Positions 29,874-35,826 of a stretch of DNA of 48,546 bases are shown here, piece by piece. A program made the position numbers and the translations under genes. The stretch's first letter is position 1, and every line of letters starts with the position of its first letter. Under the pieces are notes generated by a model. It had not been told where the DNA came from and made no database searches. It saw nothing but the letters and a program-made list of their open reading frames with translations. The DNA is from an uncultured Pelagibacteraceae bacterium (lineage in GTDB: Bacteria > Pseudomonadota > Alphaproteobacteria > Pelagibacterales > Pelagibacteraceae), in NCBI GenBank assembly GCA_902627045.1, contig CACOHP010000005.1, positions 1-48,546 on the forward strand, read 5' to 3'.

Positions 29874-32318
29874 ATGGAAAAAAAACTTCCAAGTAGCACA
29901 AAAGTTGTTGTGATAGGAGGTGGAGTAGTGGGTTGCTCTGTTGCTTATCATTTAGCTAAATTTGGTTGGAAAGACACAATTCTTTTAGAAAGAGATCAAT
30001 TAACTTCAGGAACAACTTGGCATGCAGCAGGATTAGTAAGTCAATTAGGTCCAACTGCAGCAGTAACAAAAATTAGAAAATATACTTTAGATTTATATAA
30101 AGAGCTTGAAAAAAAAGTTGATCATTCTGCTGGGTTAAGACTAAACGGAGCTCTATCAATCGCTCAGCATAAAGGTAGATGGCAAGAACTTCAAAGACAA
30201 GCAACGACAGCACAACTTTATGATGTTGATGTAAGAATTTTAGATAAAGATAAAATCAAAAAAGATTATCCAATTATCAATACAGATGAAGTTATAGGAG
30301 GAATTTTAATGCCAGGTGATGGTGCAGCAGATCCGTCAGGTGTTACTCATATGTTGGCTAAAGCAGCAAGAATGGAAGGTGCAAAAATTTTTGAAAAGTC
30401 ACCTGTTGAAGAAATTTTAACTAAAGATGGAAAAATTTCTGGAGTTAAAGTCAAAGGTCAAAAAATTGAATGTGAATATATCGTTTTAGCCTCAGGCATG
30501 TGGTCAAGACAGATAGGAGAAAAAGCTGGCGTAAGTATTCCATTGTATCCAGCGGAACATTTTTACGTAATCACTGAACCAATTGAAAATTTATCTAAAA
30601 CTTTACCAGTTGTAAGAGATTTTGATAATCGGACTTATATAAAAGAAGATGCAGGAAAGATACTAGTTGGAATCTTTGAGGGAAATTCAATTCCTGCTTG
30701 GAATAAAACCAATAAAGTTCCAGAAGATTTCTCCTTTGGTGAGTTTCAAGAAAATTTTGAACATTTTGAACCTTATTTAGCTTCAGCAATTAAAAGATTT
30801 CCAATTTTAGAAACTGCTGGAATTAGAAAATTTTTTTCAGGACCAGAATCTTTTACCCCTGATACCAACACTTTATTAGGAGAAGTACCTGAGATTAAGA
30901 ATTTTTTTGTATGTTGTGGTTTAAATAGTATAGGAATTGGCAGTGGCGGTGGGGTTGGTAAAGTTACAGCTGAGTGGTTGATGACTGGTCATATCAATGA
31001 AGATATTTTTAGTTATGATATAAAAAGATTTCAAAAGTTTCATTCAGAACTAGGTTTTATCAAAAAAAGAATTACAGAGTCATTAGGAGATTTGTATGGA
31101 ATGCATTGGCCATTTAAACAACACAAAACTTCTAGAGATATAAAAAAACTTCCACATCATGATAATTTGAAAAGTTTTGGAGCATGTTTCGGTGTCTCTG
31201 GTGGATATGAAAGACCTATGTGGTTTGCATTAGATGGTGAGAAAGCAGAGTATGAATACAGCTATAACTATCAAAGCTGGTATCCTTCAGCTGAGTATGA
31301 AACTAATAATACTTTAAAAAATGTTGGCTTATTTGATTTAACTCCTTTTTCAAAGTTCGAAATAAAATCTGATAAAGCCCATCAAGAATTACAAAGAATT
31401 TGCACTGCAAATATTAAAAAAGAAGTTGGTAAATGTACCTATACTCATATGTTAAACTCAGATGGAGGTATTGAGACTGATTTAACTATAGTGGCGATTG
31501 ATGAAAACCATTTTAGAATAATTAGTTCTGCCGCAACAAGAGAAAGAGACAAGCACCATATCAAAAAACATTTGAATGAAGACATTGCATTAACAGATGT
31601 GACTGATGATTATTGTGTTTTTGGTTTATTTGGACCCAAAAGCAGAAACCTTATGAATTCATTGAGTAAAGATAATTTTGATAATAAAAATTTCAAATTT
31701 GGAACTGCAAAATTCATTTCAATCAAAGATACTAAAATTTGGACACAGAGATTGTCTTATGTTGGGGAATTAGGATACGAACTTTATGTAGAGGCTAAAG
31801 ATGCCAAAAAAATTTATGAATTAATTATTGAAAAAGGTAAAGATTTTAATCTTTCAAATTGTGGTATGCATGCAATGGATATTATGCGTATGGAAAGTGG
31901 TTTTTTGCATTGGGGTCATGATATATCTCCTGAAGAAAATCAATATCAGGCAGGTTTATCTTTTACAATCAGTAATAAAAAGAATGTAGATTTTATCGGT
32001 AAGTCAGCTCTTGAAAAGATTGATAAAAAAAAGATTAAAACAAGATTTGCCATGTTTACGTTAAAAGATAGCAAACCTGGAGAACCACTCTTACTTCATG
32101 ATGAGCCTATTTATCTAGAAGATAAGATAATAGGAAGATCAACTTCTGGAAATTATTCTTTTAACTTTAAGAAAAACTTAACTTTTGGTTATATTAATAA
32201 CGATTTTTCCTATGAAAAATTGAAAAATAGTAAATTATTTATTGAGGTTGAGAAAAAAAAATATGAAATTGAATTGATTAGTAGGTCACTAAAGCAGACT
32301 AATTTTAAGAGTAACTAA
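29874..32318 (+). CDS. Dimethylglycine/sarcosine dehydrogenase-like FAD-GcvT fusion protein
   Basis: An 814-residue two-part enzyme. The N-terminal DAO-type FAD domain has VVVIGGGVVGCSVAYHLA (about 11-28) and SGTTWHAAG, where H50 matches the His that carries covalent FAD in dimethylglycine dehydrogenase. A FAO_M segment lies at about 375-430. The C-terminal GcvT-type tetrahydrofolate domain covers about 430-810 (NVGLFDLTPFSKFEI, CGMHAMDIMRMESGFLHWG). The expected chemistry is oxidative N-demethylation with transfer of the one-carbon unit to tetrahydrofolate and electrons to ETF. Candidate substrates are dimethylglycine, sarcosine or, given the sulfonate context, N-methyltaurine. Starts 4 bases after ald; the stop interlocks with the convergent BASS gene. 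Confidence 0.87.
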   Translation: MEKKLPSSTKVVVIGGGVVGCSVAYHLAKFGWKDTILLERDQLTSGTTWHAAGLVSQLGPTAAVTKIRKYTLDLYKELEKKVDHSAGLRLNGALSIAQHKGRWQELQRQATTAQLYDVDVRILDKDKIKKDYPIINTDEVIGGILMPGDGAADPSGVTHMLAKAARMEGAKIFEKSPVEEILTKDGKISGVKVKGQKIECEYIVLASGMWSRQIGEKAGVSIPLYPAEHFYVITEPIENLSKTLPVVRDFDNRTYIKEDAGKILVGIFEGNSIPAWNKTNKVPEDFSFGEFQENFEHFEPYLASAIKRFPILETAGIRKFFSGPESFTPDTNTLLGEVPEIKNFFVCCGLNSIGIGSGGGVGKVTAEWLMTGHINEDIFSYDIKRFQKFHSELGFIKKRITESLGDLYGMHWPFKQHKTSRDIKKLPHHDNLKSFGACFGVSGGYERPMWFALDGEKAEYEYSYNYQSWYPSAEYETNNTLKNVGLFDLTPFSKFEIKSDKAHQELQRICTANIKKEVGKCTYTHMLNSDGGIETDLTIVAIDENHFRIISSAATRERDKHHIKKHLNEDIALTDVTDDYCVFGLFGPKSRNLMNSLSKDNFDNKNFKFGTAKFISIKDTKIWTQRLSYVGELGYELYVEAKDAKKIYELIIEKGKDFNLSNCGMHAMDIMRMESGFLHWGHDISPEENQYQAGLSFTISNKKNVDFIGKSALEKIDKKKIKTRFAMFTLKDSKPGEPLLLHDEPIYLEDKIIGRSTSGNYSFNFKKNLTFGYINNDFSYEKLKNSKLFIEVEKKKYEIELISRSLKQTNFKSN

Positions 32319-33166
32319 ACTTTATTTCTTAAGAGAAAAACAAATATAAAACCAGTGATGTACATAATTAAAGCATATGCTGCTGTTGGAGTTATGTAGA
32401 CTATATCTGTCCCGAATATTTGTGTTGAAACAAATATTGCTAAAGTACCATTTTGCAATCCACATTCTAAAGCAATACATTTTTGTTGTTTAATTCCTGA
32501 GGCAAAAGTTTTAGCAAGGTAATATGCCACAATCATCATTGTTATATTCAAAAATAAGGTAATGAAACCTGCTTGTATTAGAAAATCTATAAAACTTTCT
32601 CTTTCCTCATAAAATGCAGCTATAAAAAAAATAACAAATAATACTATATTAAGTTTTTCAAATATTCGAATTTTTGAATTTACAAAATTTTCAGCAAATT
32701 TTCTTATAATCATTCCCAAGATAACTGGAACCGTTACGACCAAAAACATCTTTAGCGCTATACCAGTCATTGAAATATTTTGAGAAATATTTGTAATTCC
32801 AAATATATCAGCAGATGTAAAGATTATAAGAGGAACAGTAATTATAGAAATTAAACTGATTATAGCTGTTAAAGTAATAGATAAAGCAACATCTCCATTA
32901 GCAAATTTTGTTAATATATTTGATGTAACTCCACCCGGCGCAGCAGCAATAATCATAACTCCAATGGCTATTTCAGGTGGTACTTTTAAAATAATAATTA
33001 ATAAGTAAGCAACCAATGGAAGAATAATTAATTGAGATAAAAAACCTATAAAAAAATCTTTTGGCGTTTTTAATACTCTCTTAAAATCTTCAATTTTCAA
33101 ACCTAAACCTAAACCCAACATTATTAATGCGAGTATGATAGGCGCTATTTTTGTTACTATCTCCAT
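32315..33166 (-). CDS. Bile acid:sodium symporter (BASS) family transporter
   Basis: A 283-residue membrane protein with about nine helices. BASS-family features are the N-terminal PIILALIMLGLGLGLKIEDFKRV, AAAPGGVTSNILTKFANGDVALS with the sodium-site region, and the ECGLQNGTLAIFVS motif near the end. Members import organic anions with Na+, including pyruvate and other carboxylates; the substrate here is unknown. It lies 44 bases downstream of the regulator gene on the same strand, which suggests that regulator as its controller. Confidence 0.88.
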   Translation of the reverse strand: MEIVTKIAPIILALIMLGLGLGLKIEDFKRVLKTPKDFFIGFLSQLIILPLVAYLLIIILKVPPEIAIGVMIIAAAPGGVTSNILTKFANGDVALSITLTAIISLISIITVPLIIFTSADIFGITNISQNISMTGIALKMFLVVTVPVILGMIIRKFAENFVNSKIRIFEKLNIVLFVIFFIAAFYEERESFIDFLIQAGFITLFLNITMMIVAYYLAKTFASGIKQQKCIALECGLQNGTLAIFVSTQIFGTDIVYITPTAAYALIMYITGFIFVFLLRNKV

Positions 33167-33210: not shown

Positions 33211-34188
33211 TTATGAAATTGCAATCAAATTCAAAATTCTTGTTAAAAATTTAGATTTTTCTTTGAAAAAATTCATTTGGAAATTAAATACTTTTTCCTT
33301 ATTATTTCCGGTTAAGAAATATTGTTTCTTGTCATTTACTTTTAAACTATCTTTTTTAATTAAAAATTTACACTTTCTTATTACCGTAGCTCGTGGAATA
33401 TTTGTCATTTCTGAAATAGACATAGCGCTTAAACCAGGTTTGGTTAATTGAAGAGGATTTAAGAATGTATCCTCAACAAAAAATTTATTATCTTTATTTG
33501 TAGAGAGATTTTGCGGAAAAGATTTTGTATTTAACGCTTGGTGCATCATTATCGTACCAATTACATGCGCAGTAGTAAAATCATAAAACATTTTTTGATA
33601 ACCAATAACCCAGGGTATCTGCATTCTATAATACCATCTCCAGCATAATGTGAAATTTTTTTTAATAACTTTTTCTATTAAGTTTGCATCGATTTTTTTG
33701 TTATATAATTTATTTTTATTAAGTAAATTGGCAACTTTAGCAACATACTTAGAAGTAAAAGGTATTTGTTGAATAGGTTGAACATATGGATATGCAGATC
33801 TATCTATCGTAATTTGTTTTTTTTGCCTTTTTATGACGCCTAATTTTTCAAGCTCTAAAACTTTTCTCCTAATAGTTTCTTTTGGTAAACTTAGTTTTTC
33901 ACATAATTCTGAAATACTAAATTTATTTATTTGTAAATTTTGTTTGGAGTAATATTGATCATAATTTTGTGTAACGTTTACCTGGTGATAAAAATTTAAT
34001 GTTTTTTCAACTAAGGATACAATTATTAAAAATTTTACGTGATCTTGAAAAGAAATGTAAACATTGTTCAACCAATTCCATTGATGAGTTACCCAATCTG
34101 TACCAAGATCATTATAATTTTGAGTAATAAAATCTTGGACATCGTTATCAGAGAGTGTTTTGGAAAAATCTATTTGTTTTGCTTCCAT
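33211..34188 (-). CDS. Putative transcription regulator with two winged-helix segments
   Basis: The frame is open up to a TTG at 34233, but the best start is the ATG at 34188 (MEAKQIDF), giving 325 residues. Two helix-turn-helix/winged segments share one signature: INKFSISELCEKLSLPKETI with RRKVLELEKLGVIKRQ (about 87-125), and SAMSISEMTNIPRATVIRKC followed by KFLIKKDSLKV (about 255-295). Between them lies an aromatic-rich segment (FTLCWRWYYRMQIPWVIGYQ). No named family is recognised. Direct repeats just upstream of the ATG may be its own operator. Downstream on the same strand is the BASS transporter gene. Confidence 0.65.
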   Translation of the reverse strand: MEAKQIDFSKTLSDNDVQDFITQNYNDLGTDWVTHQWNWLNNVYISFQDHVKFLIIVSLVEKTLNFYHQVNVTQNYDQYYSKQNLQINKFSISELCEKLSLPKETIRRKVLELEKLGVIKRQKKQITIDRSAYPYVQPIQQIPFTSKYVAKVANLLNKNKLYNKKIDANLIEKVIKKNFTLCWRWYYRMQIPWVIGYQKMFYDFTTAHVIGTIMMHQALNTKSFPQNLSTNKDNKFFVEDTFLNPLQLTKPGLSAMSISEMTNIPRATVIRKCKFLIKKDSLKVNDKKQYFLTGNNKEKVFNFQMNFFKEKSKFLTRILNLIAIS

Positions 34189-34198
34189 AATATATCTA

Positions 34199-34253
34199 AT
34201 GTCAATTAATGACCCAAATTGAACACATGTCAATCAAATACTGACCCATATTG
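34199..34253. promoter_or_regulatory. Two direct repeats upstream of the winged-helix regulator gene
   Basis: Copy 1 (34199-34221) reads ATGTCAATTAATGACCCAAATTG. Copy 2 (34227-34253) is the same with a 4-base longer middle and two changes: ATGTCAATC, then AAATAC, then TGACCCATATTG. The copies start 28 bp apart and lie 11-65 bases upstream of the regulator's likely ATG on the minus strand, where TTGACA-like elements also occur. They are good candidates for an operator used by a protein with two DNA-binding segments. Confidence 0.6.
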
Positions 34254-34286
34254 GACTTTTTGTAACGTTGAGAAAAATTAGACTAT

Positions 34287-34532
34287 ATGATGTATAGGCT
34301 TATGAGAAATAAAGGCTTTACAGATTTTAGTACTGAAATTGAGACCCCAAATGATTTCGGTAAGTCTGAAAAGCCTTTAAAAACTAGAAGAACTAAACCT
34401 AATAGAGTTGATATAAATATTTTAAAATCGAAACTCCAAGAGACAGAGAACAAAGAGTTTAAAAAAAATCTGATCATCCTCACAGTTCTTTTTCTAATGT
34501 TAGGAATTTTAGGTATTAACCTTTCACTTTAG
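34287..34532 (+). CDS. Small membrane-anchored protein A (hypothetical)
   Basis: An 81-residue protein: a charged N-terminal half with KSEKPLKTRRTKPNRVDINI, then a C-terminal membrane helix (about 60-80, NLIILTVLFLMLGILGINLSL). Starts at 34287, 34290 or 34302 are possible. It shares the pattern (D/N)INIL-x2-(K/R)-(L/V)-(Q/K)-x2-E with the next gene, so the two are probably paralogues. Function not recognised. The opposite-strand frame here is a shadow. Confidence 0.6.
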   Translation: MMYRLMRNKGFTDFSTEIETPNDFGKSEKPLKTRRTKPNRVDINILKSKLQETENKEFKKNLIILTVLFLMLGILGINLSL

Positions 34533-34546
34533 TCAAATTTGCAAAT

Positions 34547-34780
34547 ATGAATTTTTCGTGGTTAAATAACAGTATGAAAAGTTCCGGTTTTAATGTGAGA
34601 GAAAAATTAGTTGAAAAGTATCTCATAAAAGACAATCCAAAAAATCAAGCTAAGAGCACAAACATAAATATTTTGCTAAATAGAGTTAAGGCTGAAAAAA
34701 AAAATGAGAGTATGAAAAAAATATATTTTTCTGCTGCAGCCTCTACGGGTTTAGTGCTATTTGGTCTTTTAATTTTTTAA
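34547..34780 (+). CDS. Small membrane-anchored protein B (hypothetical)
   Basis: A 77-residue protein with a polar N-terminus (WLNNSMKSSGFNVREKLVEK), the segment KSTNINILLNRVKAEKKNE at about 41-59, and a C-terminal membrane helix (about 62-77). It matches its neighbour at 34287 in layout and in the NINIL-type motif. Both lie in one direction with a 14-base gap. It ends 11 bases before the end of the convergent guaC gene. Confidence 0.6.
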   Translation: MNFSWLNNSMKSSGFNVREKLVEKYLIKDNPKNQAKSTNINILLNRVKAEKKNESMKKIYFSAAASTGLVLFGLLIF

Positions 34781-34791
34781 TAATTTAAAAG

Positions 34792-35826
34792 TTATTTTAT
34801 AAAAGTATCATTAAATTGATTACTAACTCTTACAAAAGTCGTGCATTTACTTAATTGTTTTAAAGATGGTGCACCAACATAGGTACAACTACTTCTTACA
34901 CCACCTAGAATATTTAAGATTGTTTCATTTATTTTTCCTCTATATTTAACTTTTACCGATCTTCCTTCACTACTCCTATAGTTTGATAGTCCACCATAAT
35001 GTTTTTTATTTGCAACCTCGGAACTAGAGCCGTAAAATTCGATATATTTTGAGCCATTTTTTTTTATTATTTTTCCACCACCTTCATCATGTCCTGCTAA
35101 CATGCCACCAAGCATAACAAAATCAGCGCCCCCACCAAAACCTTTGGCAACATCACCTGGACAAGTACAACCTCCATCAGCAATAATATGTGCGCCTAAA
35201 CCATGAGCTGCATCTGCACATTCAATTACTGCACTTAATTGAGGGTAACCAACTCCTGTTTGTATTCTTGTAGTACACACACTTCCAGGTCCAATACCTA
35301 CTTTAACAATATCCGCACCACTCAAGACTAATTCTTGTGTCATATCTGCTGTAACAACATTACCAGCAATGATAGTTTTTGTTGGATATTTATCTCTTAC
35401 AGATTTGATAAAATTTGTAAAATGTTCGGTATATCCATTAGCTACATCTATACATATAAATTTAAAAAAACTAAATTCTTTCAATACTTTATCTAAAGTA
35501 CGAAAATCCTCTTTTTTAATACCAACACTCAATGCTATGTTTTGATAAATTTTTTTTATATTCTTATTTTGTTTAATTTTTTTAACATCGTGTTGTTTAG
35601 TTAGACATGTAATCATGCCATGCTCATTTAATTTTTCAGCTATACTAAGTTCACCAACACCATCCATATTGGCAGCTATTATTGGAATTCCTGACCATTC
35701 ATTTTTACTGTATTTAAATCGATAAGTTCTTAATAGATTTACGTCCTTACGACTTTTTAATGTGCTTCTTTTGGGTCTGAATAAGACATCTGAGTAGTCT
35801 AATTTAAGCTCTTCTTCTATTCTCAT
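34792..35826 (-). CDS. guaC: GMP reductase
   Basis: Reductively deaminates GMP to IMP, linking guanine and adenine nucleotide pools. The 344-residue protein has the IMPDH/GMPR barrel without the CBS domains of IMP dehydrogenase. The catalytic Cys is in [19 protein letters not shown], followed by [20 protein letters not shown] and the MLAGHDE segment typical of GuaC. It is divergent from the beta-propeller gene. A perfect 8-3-8 palindrome lies 17-35 bases upstream of its ATG. Confidence 0.93.

Follow-up and report, generated by a model that had tools for sequence, protein, structure and literature searches.

A fused two-headed MarR-like regulator and its predicted lopsided operators in Pelagibacterales

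The window analyzed here, a stretch of 48,546 nucleotides from an uncultured Pelagibacteraceae bacterium (contig CACOHP010000005.1 of assembly GCA_902627045.1), encodes a regulator for which sequence comparison firmly supports a full-length internal duplication of a MarR-like unit, together with conservation of the predicted operators upstream of its gene. We consider it quite probable that this protein is a single-chain pseudo-dimer that places one head on each half-site and represses its own gene and a divergent membrane-protein gene through lopsided operators. Within this reading, the full-length duplication, the two diverged recognition helices and the conserved operators come from the sequence.

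The coordinates of the locus are collected in Table 1. The start codon of the regulator was placed at the ATG at 34188, which is in register with the homologues in their alignment. A 340-aa ORF from the TTG at 34233 was rejected, as that TTG falls within the TTGACA box. The original prediction of two HTH segments in this protein was borne out: both segments, SISELCEKLSLPKETIRRK and SISEMTNIPRATVIRK, were found, the Pfam families HTH_24 and HTH_11 each matched above cut-off at two stretches, and the AF2 model, built from 28 sequences (pLDDT 85.7, pTM 0.85), contained two winged helices rather than one. The order of elements in the model was the same in both halves, namely two long helices, the winged HTH and a long helix. 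The internal duplication behind the double HTH was supported by the profile match of the N half to the C half, which covered 150 columns (probability 97.9, E 3.3e-13). Each half of the regulator also aligned, as a profile, to a family of half-size proteins (E 3.2e-13 and 7.5e-14), whose own profile matched both halves separately in the G269 and G262 proteins. Local alignment of L058 and L061 to the C-terminal half of the regulator likewise detected the internal repeat (E 8e-5 and 7e-6, respectively). The recognition helix of HTH1, LPKETIRRK (33862-33888), has the P-x-E-T-x-R-R-K of most one-headed relatives, and in that of HTH2, IPRATVIRK (33373-33399), Ala267 replaces the Glu of the relatives and Ile270 their Arg. 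Close relatives in a collection of named genomes were 12 Pelagibacteraceae (SAR11) loci, with 77-79% identity.

Table 1. Features of the regulator locus, with positions in the window
Feature	Position	Strand	Basis
SBF/BASS-type sodium symporter, 44 bp downstream of the regulator; probable operon partner	32315..33166	-	ORF, Pfam, neighbourhood comparison
Regulator CDS, 325 aa, tandem duplication of a MarR-like unit	33211..34188	-	ORF, homologue alignment, AF2 model, half-versus-half profiles
Winged HTH 2, residues 255-292	33313..33426	-	Pfam, AF2 model, helix comparison
Winged HTH 1, residues 92-129	33802..33915	-	Pfam, AF2 model, helix comparison
Inner operator (predicted), GTTCAATTTGGGT	34212..34224	-	Genome pattern scan, locus comparison
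TTGACA lying between the two operators; candidate for the -35 box of the regulator	34228..34233	-	TTGAC there in 67/74 loci
Outer operator (predicted), GTCCAATATGGGT	34244..34256	-	32 bp from the inner operator; pattern scan, locus comparison
Divergent small gene and candidate target; its 76-aa product has a hydrophobic segment at the C-terminus and the motif RVDIN.LK	34302..34532	+	ORF, neighbourhood comparison
Paralogous second small protein, with the 130 bp upstream free of operators	34574..34777	+	Protein and upstream comparison

The conserved element upstream of the regulator is a 13-bp unit, GTYCA-NNN-TGGGT, present in two copies 32 bp apart from start to start. By its letters this unit is a pseudo-palindrome, with GTYCA as the left half and a right half that reads ACCCA on the other strand. 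The original prediction had described repeats of 23-27 bases 28 bp apart; a conserved two-copy element does lie there, but its true unit is 13 bp at 32 bp and the longer repeat is due to chance. On the + strand, ATGTCAAT recurs 28 bp apart, and the long repeat drawn from it was discarded, as TTGAC directly follows the inner site in the window only, among 74 loci. The two copies of that longer repeat are unequal by one insertion, and a default direct-repeat search of 34100-34400 listed no direct repeat.

In the genome of the window (0.91 Mb, 82% complete), GTYCAWWWTGGGTY occurred twice, both times upstream of the regulator, and the reversed control pattern occurred 0 times. The tandem pattern with fixed spacing, which is strict and misses some variant pairs, was found in 35 of 101 same-genus genomes with one match each, while the reversed controls gave 0. 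When 30 of these 35 were fetched as loci, 29 entered a homologous ORF 8-27 bp on, and the remaining one, L070, was cut by the contig end. The repeats are conserved at the regulator in the 29 readable loci, and the autoregulatory position that had been proposed is supported. In a sample of 61 genomes, a homologue was present in 24, all of them within the 37 same-genus genomes (the window's own included), and in 0 of 24 sister-family genomes; within the same-genus 37, the 24 genomes that have a homologue yielded the tandem pattern in 13 cases, and the 13 that lack one yielded it in 0. The operators were found again upstream of homologues at about 30% identity. The spacing was 32 bp in 76 of 78 site pairs closer than 80 bp. 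Of the homologous loci in which two sites stand 32 bp from each other (74 including the window, 63 of them distinct in sequence), 67 have TTGAC between the sites.

A one-mismatch scan of the window's own genome gave 14 sites, including the two real ones, versus 19 for reversed controls; there was no excess, so the scan is uninformative on a wider regulon. A search near the operators gave no sigma-70 match that scored at least 9 of 12, which leaves the -10 box unsure, and Rfam gave no match up to E 1 in 34000-34800. A phage origin was rejected, as none of 7 pattern matches in viral contigs was a relative. In PMC2704228, Pelagibacter intergenic regions with many matches and without RNA structure are considered possible DNA-level protein-binding sites; SAR11_0037/0038, named there for such regions, may or may not be the regulator locus.

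We compared sites and helices among three sets of proteins, in which each row is a distinct protein from the fetched loci, not a random sample: A1, 100 rows like the window protein; A2, 30 two-headed rows of about 355 aa from a sister family; and A3, 21 half-size rows. The counts exclude ORFs running off a contig end without a stop, ORFs shorter than 140 codons and proteins identical to another row. The 160 bp upstream were classified by a rule in which the ancestral half is [AG]CC[CT]A and the changed half is G[TAG][TC]CA, the half-site classes having been written after inspection of the sites. A lopsided site, with one ancestral and one changed half, was found in 84/100 A1, 0/30 A2 and 0/21 A3 rows, and a site of the symmetric class, with two ancestral halves, in 0/100, 29/30 and 7/21, respectively; the rule gave neither class in 16/100, 1/30 and 14/21. 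With the same rule, random 165-bp windows from the same loci contained a lopsided site in 4/2000 cases for A1 and 4/600 for A2, and among 420 such windows for A3 there were 6 lopsided, 1 symmetric and 1 double-changed. Most A2 rows (28/30) had a single site by the search rule applied to them, which started 22-26 bp ahead of the start codon in these rows. The exact sequence ACCCA-NNN-TGGGT was present in 25/30; the 29 symmetric A2 sites comprised these 25 exact ACCCA/TGGGT sites, 3 with a TGGGC end and 1 with a TAGGT end.

The recognition helices of the three sets were compared as well. With few exceptions, A1 helices read (P/S)KE(T/S)xRRK and PR(A/P)Tx(I/V)RK; the exceptions include L105, L115 and L116, as well as Leu or Thr in L014, L015 and L119. 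In A2, E and RR were kept in both helices in 30/30 rows (21 by pattern, 9 by reading), and 20/21 A3 helices read PxETxRRK. In L115 and L116 the Glu of HTH2 is restored and the site is the near-symmetric CACCA-TAT-TGGGC, and L105 combines Gln in HTH2 with GACCA-TAT-TGGGC; by their sequences, these three are suggestive of in-between cases of the helix and site change. In the tree, the C halves of A1 and A2 grouped together (99/86), but their N halves did not. The lopsided site goes with the loss of Glu and Arg in the HTH2 helix, an association that lies close to one tree split, so that the rows are not independent and amount to about one event seen many times; it suggests that the two heads probably divide each site between them, one half per head. 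We infer that HTH1 would read the TGGGT (=ACCCA) half and HTH2 the GTYCA half.

Some further sites were observed in passing. Upstream of the half-size genes L024, L127, L125 and L128 there were two or three near-palindromic sites, partly seen by eye, spaced about 20-22 bp (two helical turns) versus 32 bp in the window. The palindrome ACCCAWWWTGGGT had a second genomic copy, besides the one at its own regulator, in 2 of 6 sister-order genomes scanned (G046:C2:11529-11541 and G038:C2:11329-11341), which may be a further target. L102 (G205) and L107 (G130) are second two-headed paralogues with one variant operator each, GGCCA or GATCA paired with TGGGT, a few bases after TTGACA.

At the order level, 151 of 197 genomes matched the A1 profile at E 1e-5, with half-size and sister-family proteins included. 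In a class-level sample of 240 genomes there were four with a match at E 1e-8: two, among them the genome of the window itself, belong to its family, and the other two gave weak half-size matches; the full double form was not found outside the order in this 240-genome sample.

Next to the regulator, two small genes stand in tandem on the other strand. Both encoded paralogues carry a hydrophobic segment at the C-terminus, along with a motif of the (V/S)(D/N)IN.L type, and the small protein is probably tail-anchored in the membrane; Pfam gave no family above cut-off for the first of the two, nor for any of three small proteins tested. Of the 97 A1 loci in which 250 bp or more precede the ORF, 77 have the divergent small gene. 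Tandem sites were found in 73 of these 77 and in 0 of the 20 loci without it, with both strands rechecked; the other four had one site by pattern, and L010, L011 and L012 among them have a variant second copy. In L039, the fourth of them, only the second small gene is left and the outer site has decayed, and in L191, which has no divergent gene, two sites lie 20 bp apart, not 32. For the second paralogue, no site was found in the 130 bp upstream in 6 genomes. One or two copies of the small protein were found in 10 of 19 genomes, and none in four sister-family genomes tested. Within the coding sequence of the first small protein there is an 18-nt inverted repeat (89%), at 34310-34327 and 34362-34379.

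In 7 loci the small gene lies downstream of the regulator. A site was present upstream of the moved gene by pattern in L113 (two sites, 32 bp apart), L114 and L118, and a looser one by eye in L013, L014, L015 and L120; in L113 and L114, the site at the regulator is inverted. In the window's own genome, no exact copy was found away from the regulator. In two genomes of genus g8 (L206 and L207) the small gene and the regulator are on different contigs, and one partial site in opposite orientation lies upstream of the small gene, and of the five regulators of this genus, four have no site and L111 has a loose match only. The small membrane protein, so far unstudied, appears to keep its regulatory link despite relocation. 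The SBF/BASS neighbor was present in 88/100 A1 loci, 0/30 A2 loci and 1/21 A3 loci; in 52 of the 88 it lies downstream and co-directional, in 31 it is convergent, in 4 divergent and in 1 upstream and co-directional.

Based on these comparisons, we propose that two MarR-like units joined in one polypeptide form a single-chain pseudo-dimer. HTH1, with the helix of the one-headed relatives retained, would contact the TGGGT half, and HTH2, altered to PR(A/P)Tx(I/V)RK, would contact the GTYCA half, so that one chain would cover one 13-bp site. The divergent start codons enclose the two predicted sites, which are separated by about three helical turns and flank the TTGACA box; the bound regulator would there shut down its own gene, the membrane-protein gene and probably the co-directional transporter gene. 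The protein is most likely an autorepressor that also represses the divergent membrane-protein gene, and the adjacent SBF/BASS transporter is probably repressed as well. We guess that a signal, perhaps the substrate of the transporter or the membrane protein itself, would lift the repression.

A two-headed protein reading a two-copy site, as originally predicted, is right as to the two heads and the two conserved copies, but the assignment of one head to each copy is probably wrong. Such an assignment, with the DNA between copies 32 bp apart looped or bent, would suit a protein with two heads, the two copies in 73 of the 97 A1 loci with enough upstream DNA, and the nearly constant spacing. We nevertheless regard it as quite unlikely, because the two-headed A2 proteins mostly have a single copy, as do the two-headed L102, L107, L113 and L114 at the regulator, because each copy by itself forms a pseudo-palindrome, with symmetric counterparts in relatives, and because the second copy tracks the divergent membrane gene. 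One head per half-site is the better pairing.

The regulator could instead be an activator, with tandem sites by the -35 region recruiting RNA polymerase for the divergent gene. The orientation of the site toward the membrane gene is kept in the 7 loci with a moved gene (4 by eye), and the lack of a good sigma-70 promoter would agree with activation. However, the inner site closely follows the regulator's TTGACA box and is thereby in a repressor position, the single A2 sites begin close ahead of the start codon, and the orientation is flipped at the small gene in the two g8 genomes, which makes activation unlikely in our judgment. It is very improbable that the repeats are promoter or RNA elements and not operators of the regulator: they do lie in the leader, around a -35-like TTGACA, but they have no Rfam match, the site is inverted at the regulator in L113 and L114 and present at moved membrane genes, its symmetry follows the type of protein, and the tandem pattern occurs once per genome in 35 genomes, at the regulator in the 29 readable ones.

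With repression by one head per half-site as the preferred reading, we lean toward a wider one, in which Pelagibacterales record an operator losing its symmetry. A one-headed, presumed homodimeric form on near-palindromes would have been followed by a fused two-headed form on a palindrome, and then by a fused form in which two contact positions of HTH2 changed as an ACCCA half became GTYCA. The outcome would be a one-chain regulator with a tiny regulon, consisting of itself, the transporter and the tail-anchored microprotein, in a highly abundant lineage. SAR11 is known for few regulators, and here one is widespread; its site can be predicted, its predicted targets are few and its recognition code lends itself to testing. 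The natural series of symmetric, fused-symmetric and fused-lopsided forms lets one ask how fused dimers gain new DNA specificity. Among the open-licence papers listed in literature searches, no description of this regulator was found, judged by titles and the openings of abstracts.

Family assignment by sequence remained below threshold. The regulator scored under the Pfam gathering scores of MarR (13.8 vs. 24.6 bits), MarR_2 (19.2 vs. 27 bits) and TrmB (22.9 vs. 25.6), and under the cut-off of HTH_Crp_2 (18.7 vs. 27); none of the 16 Pfam families listed with E up to 5 was a cyclic-nucleotide-binding domain, and all 10 NCBIfam families listed were below their own cut-offs. A sequence search of the PDB gave weak HTH matches only (best E 0.052), with Sar proteins absent among the 10 matches up to E 1. 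Foldseek gave no match at E 0.001 or better, its best E values being weak (0.037 and 0.0085). By VIA-align, the C half matched MepR (Z 7.2, 118 residues), the N-half winged helix matched NtcA/CRP (Z up to 7.8, 74 residues), and the whole chain matched SarS (PDB 1p4x) across both halves (Z 6.2, 192 residues, rmsd 6.3, 10% identity); these Z values are moderate for helical folds, for which a common helix arrangement can give such Z, and absence of a family from the VIA-align lists was not counted as exclusion. The model of a half-size relative (pLDDT 79.6) was MarR-like, with a best Z of 10.1 over 124 residues, and most of its 50 structural matches listed were MarR-type by title or known family. 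The MarR arrangement of helices, winged HTH and long C-terminal helix is present in the models, in agreement with the Z values of the C half and the half-size relative.

Among known systems, the CRP/FNR family has a recognition helix, RETVGR with Glu181, that resembles PRETVRRK, and the N-half winged helix matches NtcA/CRP, but the cyclic-nucleotide domain of that family was not found in the regulator. A Glu in a helix of this type is able to contact cytosine, an example being Glu181 of CRP. LAGLIDADG pseudo-dimers took an analogous route, in which the two halves of a homodimer, once fused, became free to recognize a lopsided site; they are nucleases with an unrelated fold. The MarR family (MepR, MarR, SlyA, NadR) shares its fold with the C half and the half-size relative, and also the near-palindromic site at its own promoter. 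Classical members are homodimers of about 140 aa with a ligand pocket at the interface, whereas the regulator is a fused chain that misses the MarR and MarR_2 cut-offs. SarA paralogues are covered in PMC4379015 and PMC10332168. Two homologous winged-helix units in one chain, as in the SarS type, were found in the regulator by Pfam, AF2, VIA-align and profiles; SarS and other two-domain SarA/MarR-type regulators of Staphylococcus are likewise single chains with two such units, and SarS differs from the regulator by its 10% identity and by phylum. SarS is a MarR-type protein with two winged-helix domains, and we know of no change of operator symmetry in it comparable to that of the SAR11 regulator. 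The proposed pseudo-dimer, a fused MarR-like protein with a lopsided operator, would be a variant of this known two-unit kind.
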